Shown in pieces: positions 2,170 through 54,511 of a stretch of DNA of 64,000 nt. The stretch is from Norana najaformis (taxonomy: Eukaryota; Annelida; Clitellata; Crassiclitellata; Hormogastridae). The DNA is taken from positions 10,099,719 through 10,163,718 of the forward strand of contig OZ029925.1 in assembly GCA_964023275.1 (NCBI GenBank), given 5' to 3'. The notes under the pieces were generated by a model that saw only the letters and a list, made by a program, of their open reading frames with translations, was not told the DNA's origin and ran no database searches. The translations under genes and the position numbers were made by a program. Positions within the stretch are counted from its first letter, which is position 1; each line of letters begins with the position of its first letter.

Positions 2170-28124
<25,955 letters not shown>

Positions 28125-43189: not shown

Positions 43190-46100
43190 TCAGCCAAAAA
43201 GCAGATCAGACTTTGGTGTTTGCTGGTCAACTTCCACACACTGTTTCTTGTCATCTGGAATCTGCTGTGACAAGGGAACGAGTCCCAGAAGAAGGACGTG
43301 GCGCTGGTAGGCCTTGGAAGCGCGGAATAGCGTGTCCGTCCCGTGGAGACGATCCAGAACGCCGAGCATTCCAAAGTTGTTCACAAATCTGGAAAGCAAA
43401 GCACACCCACAACTGAAAGACATCGGATCAACAACCACCTGTATGGTGATGATACATTGCTCTAGATAAACACCCAAGTAAGCACTTGCAACCCATTCTA
43501 TTCGATCAAGGTTTTGTGTTGTCAGGTCGGGAGAATCTCTGATGAGTTCCTCCTGAAGTAGCACTATATAAATTCACAATTACAATTATCCATTTAAAGG
43601 ACATGACGGACGCCATAGCTCGACTGTATTTCTTTGTTGAATACATTCGTAACTTGTACAATCTGGAACCAAATGAAGACCAAATTGATCTGGTGCTGCA
43701 CCAAAACCAGCATTCGGAGGCTTGTGAACATGCATGCAAATTTCCAACATAGGATCATACCTCATCTCACCAGCATCAGGCATCAGCTACCTTGTCATTG
43801 TTGCTTGGAATGGAGCAACACATCAACAAGGTAACCCAAATGTGCCTCTACCACCTGCATCACCTGAAATATGTTCAGTGCCTCCAATATCAAAAGTAGC
43901 CAACAACCATATTTCTGCATTCATCATCTAACAGTTGTCCTGCAGGTCAATTGTTGTGCTCACGTTTGTGCCCGAGATACAAGATCCATCAAATTCTAGA
44001 ATCAATCTCCGGAAGTGCACTTGCAGAGGGCATGTAAGCAACATATAAGATTTACCTGTAACTTTTCTTCATACTTCATTACACCGGAGCCACTGAATTT
44101 TTTAGATTAGATTAGACTAACTCTGAGCAACAGCAATTACATTAGGTTAGATTAACTGTCGTACTTGTAATGATGAAAGTCATGGGCTTCAGGTGATGGA
44201 AGGAATGGAAAATGATATCCACAGTGAGAGATGGTGGTGGAGACAATGGCCAGTGTGTACCACATGATCGCTGTTGCAATGTGAGACCCCATCAGAAAAG
44301 GACCAAGAGTAGGTGGCAGAAGGTTGCTGAAGATGTGTTCAATTGGATGAGCGTATATGGATGTCACTCCAACTGGGGCTGTCCACTCGTGATGCTTCTT
44401 ATGAATGCTACGATAGAGCATTGGCTGATGCAACAGCCTACAACAGATTAACGAAAATATGACACATTATTATTATAAACTTTATAATGTGCATAAAGTG
44501 ACACAGAAATGTTAATCTGATGTGAGAAATTAACAGATTTTACATTGTAACATGTAATACATATACTACATTGTAATTGTAACAGTGTCTTTCACAAGTC
44601 CTCTACTGTGGCTGTCATATTATCAGTCAGATGGAAGGTGTGGCATTACAGCTCTGTTATTAGTATTATTATTAAATAGTAACTTCTATGGCACAGTTGT
44701 TTACTCCACAAGGCATCAAATGATGGCACACAAAAATCAAGCTACCTATTGTATCAATTTCCAGGTCAGTCCAGTAAGACAGTCTGTGGGGTAAGCCTGC
44801 TGAAAGATGTAACTCTTGAGTTAATATCATATACGTACATTTATTAAGGTGCACATGTGCACACACACCAAGGCATAACTCCATTAAATGCATACTATAT
44901 TTTAATGAAAATCTTATTTAAAAATTAATACCAAAATAAAAAACCTGTGGCTATAGTAGAATATGACTTCTTCAATGAGAGTAAATATGACCAGCTCAAA
45001 GACAACCCAGTGGAAGGTTGGCAGTTCAGGTCCAAAGCTACAGCCGCGCCACTTCATGGCTCGAAAACACAGCAACATGAATGGCATCGAGATTACGAGC
45101 TGGTTGAACAGAACCAGCAGAACCGCCGAACACAGCTTGTTTTTGTCCACCTGGAGTTAGAAGTTCAACAACAAGCAAGTCACATGCACCATACTTTAAA
45201 TTACACCTCAATACAACACAACCTTCTTCTTGGGTGGTTCTTGATATGGCTTCCATAAACAGCATAATAATGCATTCTGGAGCACTTTCTGAGCAGTTTC
45301 TTTAAATGCATGTAAGAAAGAGTGTTACCAGTACCTTTTTTACCTTGTCTAATTACACTTGTGTCATTCAGCTCCAAAAAGAAACTTTGGGGTTAAATGG
45401 CCTTCATTTTATCACTTCACCTTCTGTGAAACTGAGCTTGGGAGACAATGACCCTCATTTTAGTCCAGACATCATAATTGGCTGGTAATTATCAGGACAA
45501 CTAATACTAAACCTATATTTCCATGTTCACATGAAGCACCAAAGTCTGGCTCTTGCATACAGTGGTGGAATGCAGACAGCCACAACGTGAGTCTTTCTAC
45601 TATGAAAAACAGGGCTGGGTATTTAAAGATTTATTTTCACTAAGAGCACCATTAAATTGGTTTACATTTAAATACATACCAGTCAATCTCTAGGTATGTC
45701 ACCAAGACACTGCAAATGATTCAACTGATAAACAAATACCAACACTGAAGTCGTATAAAAGGCCCCATATTAAGCCCCATGCAAGACATATAGGAACATT
45801 TCTACTAGCAAATGCAGAGAAAATTACAATAATTTTATGAGATTTAAAAAAGGCATTATGGAAAGCCGTCATTTTCCACTGATACCTTCCAGAGATTGAT
45901 AAGTCACAGCTACTCAGGTCACATACCTACCATTCACGATCTTCAAGCTGACCAGAATTAAACGTCTTACCCTTCAGCCATTTTCCAAATGATAAACTAA
46001 TAAGCTTTATGATTACCGGTCTGTTTTTGTCTTCTTGAATTTTATACTTCAACAGAAATTGTGGCCAACCAGTCAGATCCAAGACCATGAGAAAACCACT

Positions 46101-48895: not shown

Positions 48896-48905
48896 NNNNN
48901 NNNNN
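48896..48905. other. Assembly gap (10 N)
   Basis: Ten consecutive N. A fixed length of ten suggests a placeholder of unknown true size rather than a measured gap. It lies 14 bases after an inverted repeat, which may be why the assembly breaks here. Confidence 0.99.
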
Positions 48906-49046: not shown

Positions 49047-52000
49047 ATGGACAGCATAGGCATACACAGGTAAACTCGTGCAAAAGTCAAAAATGCCTTC
49101 TTAGGTGACATTGACATTGAAGAATTAAGAGCGTTGTCATTACCATATATTGTTATTGATAAAATAGTTAAACTTGGCTAGATCCAAGTAAGAGTTTTAT
49201 TGAAAAGTTGCTAAATAGTTGTTTGATTACATTACATCTAATTCCGTGCTTTCAGGCTAAAAACTTACATCGCTTTCATTACATGTAATTCTCTGCATTC
49301 AGGCTAGCAGCAAGCACACCAAATTCCGCCTTGGCTTTCTTGTTTGTGTCTGCACAACTTCATCAGGACACTATGTGAAAATCCTCATTGACTCAGGCTG
49401 AGATTTGCTGTCTTCATAACACATGCAATGACTGATGATTGGAATAAACTGTCATTTTTACATATACAAGACTAAATTGATTCTGACTGTGATACGTTTA
49501 GGTTAGGTGTCGAGTGATATATTAAATTTGTTGTTTCAGAAGAAAGGTTGTGGCTGTTGTTGCTGCTGGTGATATGTTCTTCAATGATAACACTGAACAT
49601 GAAGACGATTACACCAGATGCAATGGAAATCACCTGGCTAAAGTTTTATTAGCGGGCTGTTTGGTACAGAGTCAAACGCCAGTGGTCACTATTTGCCATG
49701 TCAGTAGAATGATCAATGGATACACTGCTGTGGAGTTTAAAAATCACTTTGGGATGACAAGCCATACATTTAATATAATCTTAGGTGGGCTGCAAAACTA
49801 TCAGAAATTTACTGCATGCTAAGTAACTAATTGATTGTTTTTACTAGGCAGTGAATTGAAGTTTTCATAATATTACATATGTACACTAGCCAAGTTCCAA
49901 TGACTAATATCATTCTATTAATGTAATTGCAGTAAGAGTCATTACTGGTAACATCACATGGAAACTGCAAAAGACCAGTTTTAAGCAGTTACTAAATGCA
50001 TGGCCAGATATGCAAATTAAATTTTATGAAAAAGATTTGGCCTGAAAGACTGACAAGAAGCCAAGTGAGGAGAAAGAGCAGACAACATGTTTCTACAAGC
50101 TATCAAAACAGCTCCACAAATTGATTGGAATTTAAAATAATTACCCTTACAGCAACATCTGAGAGGCTAAGGTCAAAGAGCACAACAGCTTGTAAACTTG
50201 GGATCTCGTTCTTTAGCTTATACACTTCCCCATACTTCACTTATGTCTCTATTTACCAGTTGCAATTATGGTAACATGAGATTACGTATGATCTTTCTTA
50301 TATTCATTATTAACAGTCTCCATGGCTGCAGTAGGTTATCTATGGTTACCTCCAGCCAAGTCAGTTGGCCAGGTGGGCATGACATTGGCCTCAACCTCTC
50401 CTAGACCTGAGATTTTTACCTGTCATTTGGCTATTACCCAAAGGTCAGTACAAACATGGTTTCTGTCAGACTCTTGGGGACCTACCAATATCAGGAGCTG
50501 TGAAACAGGTCATAGTGGTACGGAGACTGGTTGCTGTTTCTTTGACACATATCCTGATGCTTCATGTGACATTAGAAACACGTCTAATACCATGGAGCCC
50601 ATAGGAAAAGGTTCCTAGTTGAATAGGAAAATGGTTGTAGTTGAATAAGTGTTGTCCAACTTTCCAGAAAAGCTGTTTTTCCTAATAGTTATTGCTTGAT
50701 TATTATAACTCACTGCATATTTACCCTCTTGTTTCTGCCGTTTTTTTACAGTAATGTTAAAGAAGAGTGGGGTGGTTCCTATGCACACGCATGGAGGACG
50801 TGAGAAAATTGGCGTGGAGAAACATCTCCTGATCACGCTGTGGTACTATACGAGCCAGTCGTCCTACAGGGCGATCAGCGAACGTTTTGGTGTGCGCCAG
50901 TCTTCTGCTTTGGCTGTGGTTCGGCGTGTTACGGAGTGGCTTTGTAGCCTGGCATCGGTTTTCATCCGTTGGCCAAAGGGACAGCGAGTAACAGATGCAG
51001 ATCAGGGTATGAGAATGCAGGCTATGTCTTCTTTGGGTATAATTGGTGTACACATTCTTACAAGGAATTTAGTCTGGAAACTTGTAAACCTCAGTAAACA
51101 TCTATATGTGTTGTTGACTGTTAAGCTGGAGGAGAATCCATTGGTTGGGTTCTGTTTGTGTGAGAGAGACTGCCAGTGGAATCTTTTCCCAGGTGTTCAA
51201 GTGTCATTCACCTGCAGATGAACTTGTCATTCTTAGCAAACTCTAAAATCATTTAGGCTGAGTGGGGAGAACCTTTGAGAGATACTTAGAAGGCACAGTA
51301 TAAATACTAGTTACGTTACAGTACAGTACACAGCGACATTAAAATGATTCATTTAAGACCACTTTAAAACATTAATTTGTGTGTTTTAAATTAGATTTTT
51401 GTTTTCTGCTGTTGATAGGATTTTCTGCTAAAAGTGGCATGGCTGACATAATGGGTGCAATTGGATGCACACACATAACAATTCTTCCACCCAAGTTGCA
51501 CAAAGAGGACTACTGGAATGCCAAGTCTGGACATTCAGTAATTCTCCAGGGGGTGACTACAGCCAACTTGCTCTTTACTGATCTTTATGTTGGAGAGCCA
51601 GGGTCTCTTAGCAATGCTGAAGTCCTGAAACGATCGCCATTGTTCTCGGAAGCAGAAACTAATCGTGTTTCCATGTTTCCAAGCAGGAAGTGCCTCGTGG
51701 GAGATTCTTCTTTTCCTTCCCTGCCATGGCTCATTCCTTCATTTCCAAACTTTGTTAACCTGACTCAACAGGAGGCTGCTTTCAATGAGGTGCATGCATT
51801 GACACGTTCGGCCATTGTGGTTGCGTTCAGTCGCCTGAAGGGCAGGTTCCACCGGCTGAAAAAAGTAATGATGGCTGACGTAAAAGAAGTGCCAAATGTT
51901 GTGATGGCCTGCTGCGTACTCCATAACTTGTGTGAGCTGAATGCAGATGTGCCAAGTGAAACTGCTGCGAACTGTAGGAAAAATGATGGTGAACTCAAAG

Positions 52001-52062
52001 CTAATGTTGGTATTGGCAATGACAGACGAAATGAGTTAATGCAGCAGATGTTCAATCTTTAA
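49047..52062 (+). CDS. HARBI1: HARBI1-like domesticated Harbinger transposase, catalytic triad lost
   Basis: Exons: 49047-49069, 49540-49784, 50752-51006, 51419-52062; phases agree, giving 388 residues plus TAA with no internal stop. The start MDSIGIH splices in frame to RKVVAVVAAGDMFF. Exon 3 has the helix-turn-helix-like part typical of PIF/Harbinger proteins (REKIGVEKHLLITLWYY, SYRAISERFGVRQSS). Exon 4 has the DDE nuclease fold: KSGMADIMGAIGCTHI, GEPGSLSNAEVL, CLVGDSSFPSLPWL, SAIVVAFSRLKGRF, ACCVLHNLCEL. At the three acidic sites the residues are Gly190 (usual Asp), Asn240 (usual Asp) and Val308 (usual Glu), so transposase chemistry should be lost. No terminal inverted repeats were seen around it. 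Length is close to vertebrate HARBI1 (349). Its present role is unknown; the first exon is the least certain part. Confidence 0.88.
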
Positions 52063-53284: not shown

Positions 53285-53815
53285 AGATGTGTCAGTACAC
53301 ATCTCATCCCTCACCTACAACACACTTCAATCCTCCCAACCCTCCTATCTTCGTCAGTTATTTACTATCCAACCACTCCGTTCAACCCGCTCCTCATCTG
53401 TCCTAACACTTCTTCGCCCTCCCGTCACCTCATCCTTAAAATTTGGAAATCGCTCCATAGCCATAGCTGCCCCACCCCTTTGGAATAAACTCCCGCCAGA
53501 ATTGCGACAGTTGTCTGGTCAATCATACGAACTCACCAACACTTCACCTCTTTCGGTTTCGCGCAAGTCTTTCACTCAAGACTGAAAACACTTCTTTTCC
53601 AGAAATCTTATCCTGATTCTTATTCCCCTTATCCCTCTTCTCGCTTCAATTTCAAACATCATCCACCGTAGCCGTCCGACTGTCTGAGTGCCTGACTCCT
53701 GGATCTTGACCCTTTTGCCTATCGATTTTGTTTTGACTGAGCGCCTGTGAATAAGCTGGTTCCCGCAACTTAGCTTTCGTTGAGCGCTGTAGAAATCTCG
53801 AGATTACGATTACGA
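53285..53815 (+). mobile_element. LINE-B 3' end, copy with C-terminal ORF
   Basis: Encodes SLTYNTLQSSQPSYLRQLF, RSTRSSSVLTLLRPP, GNRSIAIAAPPLWNKLPPEL and, after a frameshift, the RLKTLLFQKSYPDS block: the C-terminus of a CR1/L2-like LINE ORF2. The 3'UTR ends GTAGAAATCTCGAGATTACG. Confidence 0.88.
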
Positions 53816-53877
53816 AATGATGACAAATTCCACCCCTCAATTTAACTTTCCTTGAGCGCTGTAGCATCTCGAGTTTA

Positions 53878-54370
53878 CGAGTTCACCTACAACACACTTC
53901 AATCCTCCCAACCCTCCTATCTTCGTCAATTATTTAATATCCAACCACTCTGTTCAACCCGCTCCTCATCTGGCGTAACACTTCTTCGCCCTCCCGTCAT
54001 CATCCTTAAAATTTGGAAATCGCTCCATAGCCATAGCTGCCCCACCCCTTTGGAATAAACTCCCGCCAGAATTGCGACGAACTCACCAACACTTCACCTC
54101 TCAGTTTCTGCGCAGGTCTTTCATTCAAGACTGAAAACACTTCTTTTCCAAAAATCTTATCCTGATTCTTCCTCTTCCCTTATCTCTCTTCTCGCTTCAA
54201 TTTCAAACACCATCCGCCGTAGCCGTCCGACTGCCTGACTCCTGGATCTTGACCTGGAACCGAACCCTTTTGCCTATCAATTTCGTTTGACTGAGCGCCT
54301 GTGAATAAGCTGGTTCCCGTGACTGAGCTTTCCTTGGGCGCTGTAGAAATCTCGAGATTACGATTACGAA
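53878..54370 (+). mobile_element. LINE-B 3' end, second adjacent copy
   Basis: Nearly identical to 53290-53815 but with small internal deletions (for example near 54080). Both end with the same tail. The two are only about 60 bases apart in the same orientation; the second ends 142 bases before the TRMT6 start codon. Confidence 0.88.
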
Positions 54371-54511
54371 AGTACCTAAGCATGGCGCTAGTAAAAGTTT
54401 GCCATAGATGCTCCATGCACGCATGGCAATTGTCGTGAATCTTTTGTAAAGCATTAGAGTTTAAAACTTACCTTAAAGTAGATAAAATATTAGATATATT
54501 ATAAACCCAAG

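Follow-up and report, generated by a model that had tools for sequence, protein, structure and literature searches.

A HARBI1-like gene of the annelid Norana najaformis is probably a former transposase gene kept by its host after the loss of two catalytic residues

A gene that resembles HARBI1 lies on the forward strand of the window, by which we mean the whole stretch of 64,000 nucleotides that was analysed (G000:C13:10099719-10163718, from a genome of 608,420,607 bases in 17 contigs). Its frame is open from start to stop, and its protein carries G, N and V at residues 190, 240 and 308, the positions that the original prediction took for the three catalytic acids of the DDE triad. The question that this locus raises is whether such a gene has been retained by its host for work other than catalysis, as that prediction proposed, or is a transposon copy that died with its frame open. 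We find that it is probably a single-copy, intron-bearing host gene derived from a PIF/Harbinger transposase, catalytically dead and kept as a binding module. Two residues of the predicted triad, rather than three, appear to have been lost.

Gene structure and domain content

The four exons of the window gene (Table 1) join into 388 codons and a stop with no internal stop in the joined translation, and all three introns are of the GT..AG type. The exon translation and the splice sites agree with the intact four-exon gene originally described. In Pfam searches the DDE_Tnp_4 profile matched residues 189–344 over its entire length (profile positions 1–158 of 158) with a score of 88.8 bits (cut-off, 24.8; E value, 3.7e-25), and exon 4 alone gave 90.3 bits. 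Plant_tran also matched, with 37.3 bits against a cut-off of 22. With a full-length DDE_Tnp_4 domain above the curated cut-off, the window protein is a member of the PIF/Harbinger-type transposase family. No PDB chain matched the window protein at E values up to 1, while a PDB search with alignment profile A2 returned three chains that were unrelated or of helix-turn-helix type, at E values of 0.06 or worse. The same database searched with a cyanobacterial IS5-type transposase (L047) gave a single unrelated chain.

Much of the exon model can be compared with a paralogue in the same genome, referred to here as C7 (G000:C7:26137476-26138363, minus strand; L009:3345-4484, minus strand), which consists of one uninterrupted frame of 380 residues from its first methionine. 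The two proteins share 97 of 292 aligned residues (33%), and the window frame is free of gaps at junctions 2/3 and 3/4 when aligned to C7. The weakest part of the predicted model is exon 1, which was placed by splice rules alone, outside the region with homology support. The next methionine is residue 20, within exon 2, and a run of 10 Ns that marks an assembly gap (48896–48905) lies ~140 bases upstream of the proposed exon 1. Because of this methionine and this gap, the true 5′ end of the gene may differ from the one proposed and may lie past the gap.

Table 1 Exons and active-site codons of the window gene (positions in the window)
Feature	Position	Strand	Description
HARBI1-like gene	49047..52062	+	
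Exon 1 (proposed)	49047..49069	+	23 nt, 7 full codons (MDSIGIH) and 2 nt; ATG, GT donor, in frame
Exon 2	49540..49784	+	AG acceptor, GT donor; end (YTAVEFKNHFGMTSHTFNIIL) in aligned core; collinear with C7 from residue 56
Exon 3	50752..51006	+	Splice sites; helix-turn-helix region, residues 110–155; collinear with C7 across junction
Exon 4	51419..52062	+	DDE_Tnp_4 catalytic-fold domain and stop codon; open frame 51376–52062
Gly190 codon	51463..51465	+	First catalytic Asp replaced; column of C7 Asp177, C3 Asp, IS903 D121
Asn240 codon	51613..51615	+	Conserved GSvHD Asp replaced, probably outside triad; column of C7 Asp227, C3 Asp, IS903 D172
Asp270 codon	51703..51705	+	Second catalytic Asp (probable), kept; column of C7 Asp257, C3 Asp, IS903 D193
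Val308 codon	51817..51819	+	Catalytic Glu replaced; column of C7 Glu295, C3 Glu, L047 Glu233

The predicted triad reads G-D-V

C7 and a decayed copy elsewhere in the genome (C3) share an acidic residue at six aligned columns, where the window protein has Gly190, Thr222, Asn240, Asp270, Val308 and Glu355. Conserved acids are therefore missing at four of its positions, 190, 222, 240 and 308. The motif acids of C7 have exactly the spacing of window residues 190, 240, 270 and 308 (50 residues from 190 to 240, 80 from 190 to 270 and 38 from 270 to 308).

Two non-animal relatives bear on which of these columns form the triad. L047 scored 92.2 bits with DDE_Tnp_4 and 80.7 bits with DDE_Tnp_1, and its match to both profiles supports a bridge to IS903-type enzymes. 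IS903 is a well-studied IS5-family transposase with the published triad D121/D193/E259. The IS903 sequence used here is up to 98.7% identical to database records that carry the annotation IS5 family transposase, and the letters at 121, 193 and 259 were confirmed. Column 190 holds the first Asp in C7, C3, L047 and IS903. Column 308 holds Glu in C7, C3 and L047, while Glu259 of IS903 falls elsewhere in that alignment. In L047, column 190 is filled by the first Asp, column 240 by the HD Asp and column 308 by the Glu, but the Asp of the LVDKGY motif missed the Asp270 column in the MAFFT alignments, with a gap opposite in one and an offset of one residue in the other. Thus, neither of the two relatives (IS903, L047) aligned at all three triad columns.

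Because D121 and D193 of IS903 meet Gly190 and Asp270, while D172 meets Asn240, the window triad probably reads G-D-V, with the first Asp and the Glu lost and the second Asp (Asp270) kept, an assignment made from sequence alignment and the published IS903 triad. Asn240 as the second triad residue is, on the same alignment, probably wrong. The UniProt entry of HARBI1, which presumably lists four metal-binding acids with the equivalent of residue 240 among them, counts against this re-assignment. The literature matches listed for the HARBI1 acid positions held nothing relevant. A description that places the second D between a strand and a helix (PMC4482050) fits either of the two middle Asp residues and does not decide between them. 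The claim that all three DDE positions have been replaced thus holds for Gly190 and Val308 but probably not for the middle residue, as Asn240 appears to lie outside the triad and the retained Asp270 had been missed. An acid at a shifted position, which had been named in advance as a finding that would speak against the claim, accordingly turned up for one residue of the three.

Catalysis by the window protein should still be lost with a G-D-V triad. The complete DDE triad by which active PIF/Harbinger elements are recognised is absent (G190, D270, V308). With two of the triad acids gone, the first Asp and the Glu, the protein would not hold the two catalytic metals and would be expected neither to cut nor to join DNA. 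Some residual or altered nuclease activity, built on Asp270 together with other acids, is conceivable given that the second triad Asp was retained, but we regard it as very improbable: Gly and Val, which now occupy the first Asp and Glu positions, are both unable to bind metal, and a single triad mutation in Ping (D295A) is described as lowering mPing excision about 150-fold (PMC2836001). Loss of the fourth conserved Asp (Thr222) is compatible with decay and with repurposing alike.

Copy number, relatives and transposon ends

A search of the whole genome with the window protein returned 39 places at E values up to 1; repeat counts from this search are lower bounds. Three of these are the exons of the gene itself. 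The next best is C7, at 33% identity over residues 56–349, and two are pieces of the broken C3 copy (34% over residues 111–224 and 24% over residues 218–365). The other 33 reach 27–31% identity inside residues 78–202, with E values of 6.6e-4 or worse. These weak matches are spread over several contigs, and the open frames that hold them are for the most part 161 or 190 residues long; the matches may represent another transposon family within the PIF/Harbinger superfamily. At the protein level, the window gene is single-copy in the 608-Mb genome; the copy count for which the original prediction had called yielded no near-identical second copy.

The genome has 18 places that match DDE_Tnp_4, and internal stops interrupt 14 of them. 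Only two of the four stop-free places span all 158 profile positions, and these are the window gene and C7. We searched around both genes, for the window gene over 2.5 kb on either side, for terminal inverted repeats (TIRs) of 14 bp with at most 2 mismatches, flanked by a 3-bp TNA duplication, and found none; ten shuffles of each region likewise gave none. Copies bounded by TIRs, which had been put forward as evidence that would overturn domestication, were therefore not seen within this distance. Inverted repeats do occur near the window gene, and were considered as transposon ends and rejected, as they recur at four places and by eye resemble retroelement 3′ ends.

C7 has a full DDE_Tnp_4 domain in which each of the four motif acids is retained, and no close second copy of it was found. 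It is a second candidate host gene and may still be catalytically competent. Its intact, DDE-type, single long open frame could also suggest that the window gene is a duplicate of C7, a former host gene that is now losing its function. The identity of merely 33% between the two would make any such duplication ancient, however, and the window frame has stayed open, which leaves this explanation quite improbable. With C7 as the query, seven weak plasmid matches were obtained. The contig that carries C7 begins with a CCCTAA telomere run (longest stretch, 642 bases), a run that three other contig ends do not have.

L011 (G000:C3) and L012 (G000:C4) are PIF/Harbinger transposase copies in decay, interrupted by internal stops; in C3, the columns for D, D, D and E still hold acids. 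At L002 (G000:C8) a broken DDE_Tnp_4 copy adjoins an open reading frame that by eye resembles a THAP domain, an arrangement that recalls ISL2EU-type elements.

Neutral decay does not readily account for the window gene

A gene that has lost catalytic residues may be a transposon copy that died and whose frame stayed open by chance, a neutrally decaying pseudogene around whose damage the exon model was fitted. Indeed, conserved acids are gone at four positions, the surroundings are repeat-rich and by eye resemble retroelement ends, and clearly decaying relatives exist elsewhere in the same genome. No relative was found in viral contigs or in the bacterial and archaeal contigs of GTDB genomes, collections that say little about orthologues. 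We simulated neutral decay from the coding sequence of C7 with random substitutions, half of them transitions, and with 10% of the steps scored as bringing an indel, a design that presupposes a neutral clock and this one starting sequence. By the time that the first Asp and the Glu were lost, 18 of 5000 runs were stop-free and 2 of 5000 had neither stop nor indel. When loss of the GSvHD Asp was required as well, so that the same residues were gone as in the window gene, just 1 of 5000 runs was stop-free and none of the 5000 lacked both stops and indels. With the three positions of the original prediction, the corresponding numbers were 4 and 0 of 3000.

The pattern of divergence points, indirectly, the same way. 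C7 and C3 are identical at 72 of 237 aligned columns, and the window protein shares 39 of these 72. At 61 sites exactly one of the window protein and C7 matches C3, the window protein at 28 and C7 at 33 (p = 0.61), so the window gene is not noticeably faster diverging than C7, which kept its DDE residues; in this comparison the outgroup C3 is itself decayed, and some of the constraint in common may date from before the residues were lost. Over 234 columns, identities are 35% between the window protein and C7, 28.6% between the window protein and C3 and 30.8% between C7 and C3. Neutral decay of the window gene, as a dead copy with a frame left open by chance, is, under this model, unlikely. Against it also stand the collinearity of the exons with C7 over two junctions and a protein search and TIR search that gave neither a second copy nor transposon ends.

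Domestication is the best reading of the locus because the gene is single-copy by protein search, has no TNA-flanked TIRs within 2.5 kb, maintains an intact spliced frame, is unlikely to be decaying neutrally and diverges no faster than its intact paralogue. In this respect the original prediction probably stands, with the amendment that two rather than three of the triad residues were lost. The properties by which domestication is judged in PMC9710019, namely a single copy (here at the protein level), absence of TIR/TSD and an intact coding region, are all found in the window gene.

Comparison with known domesticated nucleases and a possible function

Loss of the triad in domesticated PIF/Harbinger nucleases has clear precedents in ALP1 and HDP1, as described in PMC4671723 and PMC7282668. 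ALP1 of Arabidopsis is a PRC2 subunit derived from a PIF/Harbinger nuclease, and like the window gene it is single-copy and has lost two of three triad residues, its triad reading DGA (PMC4671723). By contrast, the loss in the plant protein spared the first Asp and fell on the second and on the Glu; the window protein keeps the second Asp and has lost the first and the Glu. HDP1, which belongs to a histone acetyltransferase complex of Arabidopsis, is likewise derived from a PIF/Harbinger nuclease and is stated to have lost its DDE triad (PMC7282668); unlike the annelid gene, it is a plant protein, and it works with HDP2. What would be new here is the particular gene and a pattern of loss that keeps the second Asp, a pattern of which no report was found among the matches listed in a narrow literature search.

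Animal members of the superfamily offer other likenesses. In HARBI1 the acidic residues are probably retained, in contrast to the window gene. The vertebrate protein, which pairs with NAIF1, is of the same superfamily and is also a transposase-derived host gene (PMC9710019). The insect PIF genes DPLG, APLG, LPLG and BPLG were judged domesticated because they are single-copy, lack TIRs and bear signs of selection, and LPLG1 and LPLG2 encode 356–428 amino acids, as compared with 388 for the window protein (PMC9710019). Synteny and dN/dS back the domestication of these insect genes, some of which lie next to a MADF gene (PMC9710019), whereas the window gene was judged from one genome; the words "DDE" and "triad" do not occur in the main text of that paper. 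C7 shares with the window gene a full DDE_Tnp_4 domain, the lack of a close second copy and the lack of detectable TNA-flanked TIRs, and differs from it in having all four motif acids and a single uninterrupted frame.

How might a protein without catalysis be useful to its host? Its RNase H-like domain could, along with the helical N-terminal half, act as a binding module, for which the protein would be retained. In Ping and HDP1 the N-terminal part of the nuclease protein is reported to mediate pairing with a Myb-type protein, and pairing has been retained after domestication in HARBI1/NAIF1, HDP1/HDP2 and ALP1/ALP2 (PMC7282668). By extension from these other members of the superfamily, the N-terminal half of the window protein may contact a Myb-type partner. 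The likeliest job would be a docking one, in which DNA or chromatin is joined by such a partner in the way known for ALP1 with ALP2 and PRC2, since the pairing of nuclease and Myb protein survived domestication elsewhere in the superfamily. Elsewhere in the window, a Pfam scan of 20 of the open frames found no Myb/SANT or MADF domain in these 20.

A role of the window protein in binding DNA by itself, the example given in the original prediction, is possible and gained no support: HTH_Tnp_4 reached 17.5 bits against a cut-off of 27, and DNA binding in the superfamily is ascribed mainly to the separate Myb protein (PMC2836001). By analogy with ALP1, one could speculate that an animal lineage independently evolved a dead docking subunit of this type, with a different pair of triad residues lost and a DDE-intact relative persisting separately, an extension that we offer tentatively and hold to be rather doubtful. 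If domestication is the correct reading, an animal would have followed a route documented in plants by ALP1 and HDP1, in which a Harbinger nuclease is retained and its active site abandoned. The pair of an acid-bearing and an acid-less protein in one genome would then give a direct view of what selection keeps after catalysis is gone.

Neighbourhood of the window gene

Exons with thrombospondin type 1 domains, which belong to an ADAMTS-like gene, occupy 17777–27293 of the forward strand, upstream of the window gene. An open reading frame at 7853–8116 appears by eye to be part of an ADAMTS-like protease region, and had no Pfam match at E values up to 0.01. The nearest recognised gene upstream is represented by a fatty acid hydroxylase exon (PF04116) at 44155–44466 of the reverse strand. 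Repeats that by eye resemble retroelement ends lie on both sides of the window gene, at 48.3 kb and at 52.4–54.4 kb. Within the latter, 53311–54371 consists of two tandem copies that are 92–100% alike over several blocks spaced 543–572 bases apart, and that by eye look like a retroelement 3′ end (open reading frame ...LKFGNRSIAIAAPPLWNKLPPELRQ...).
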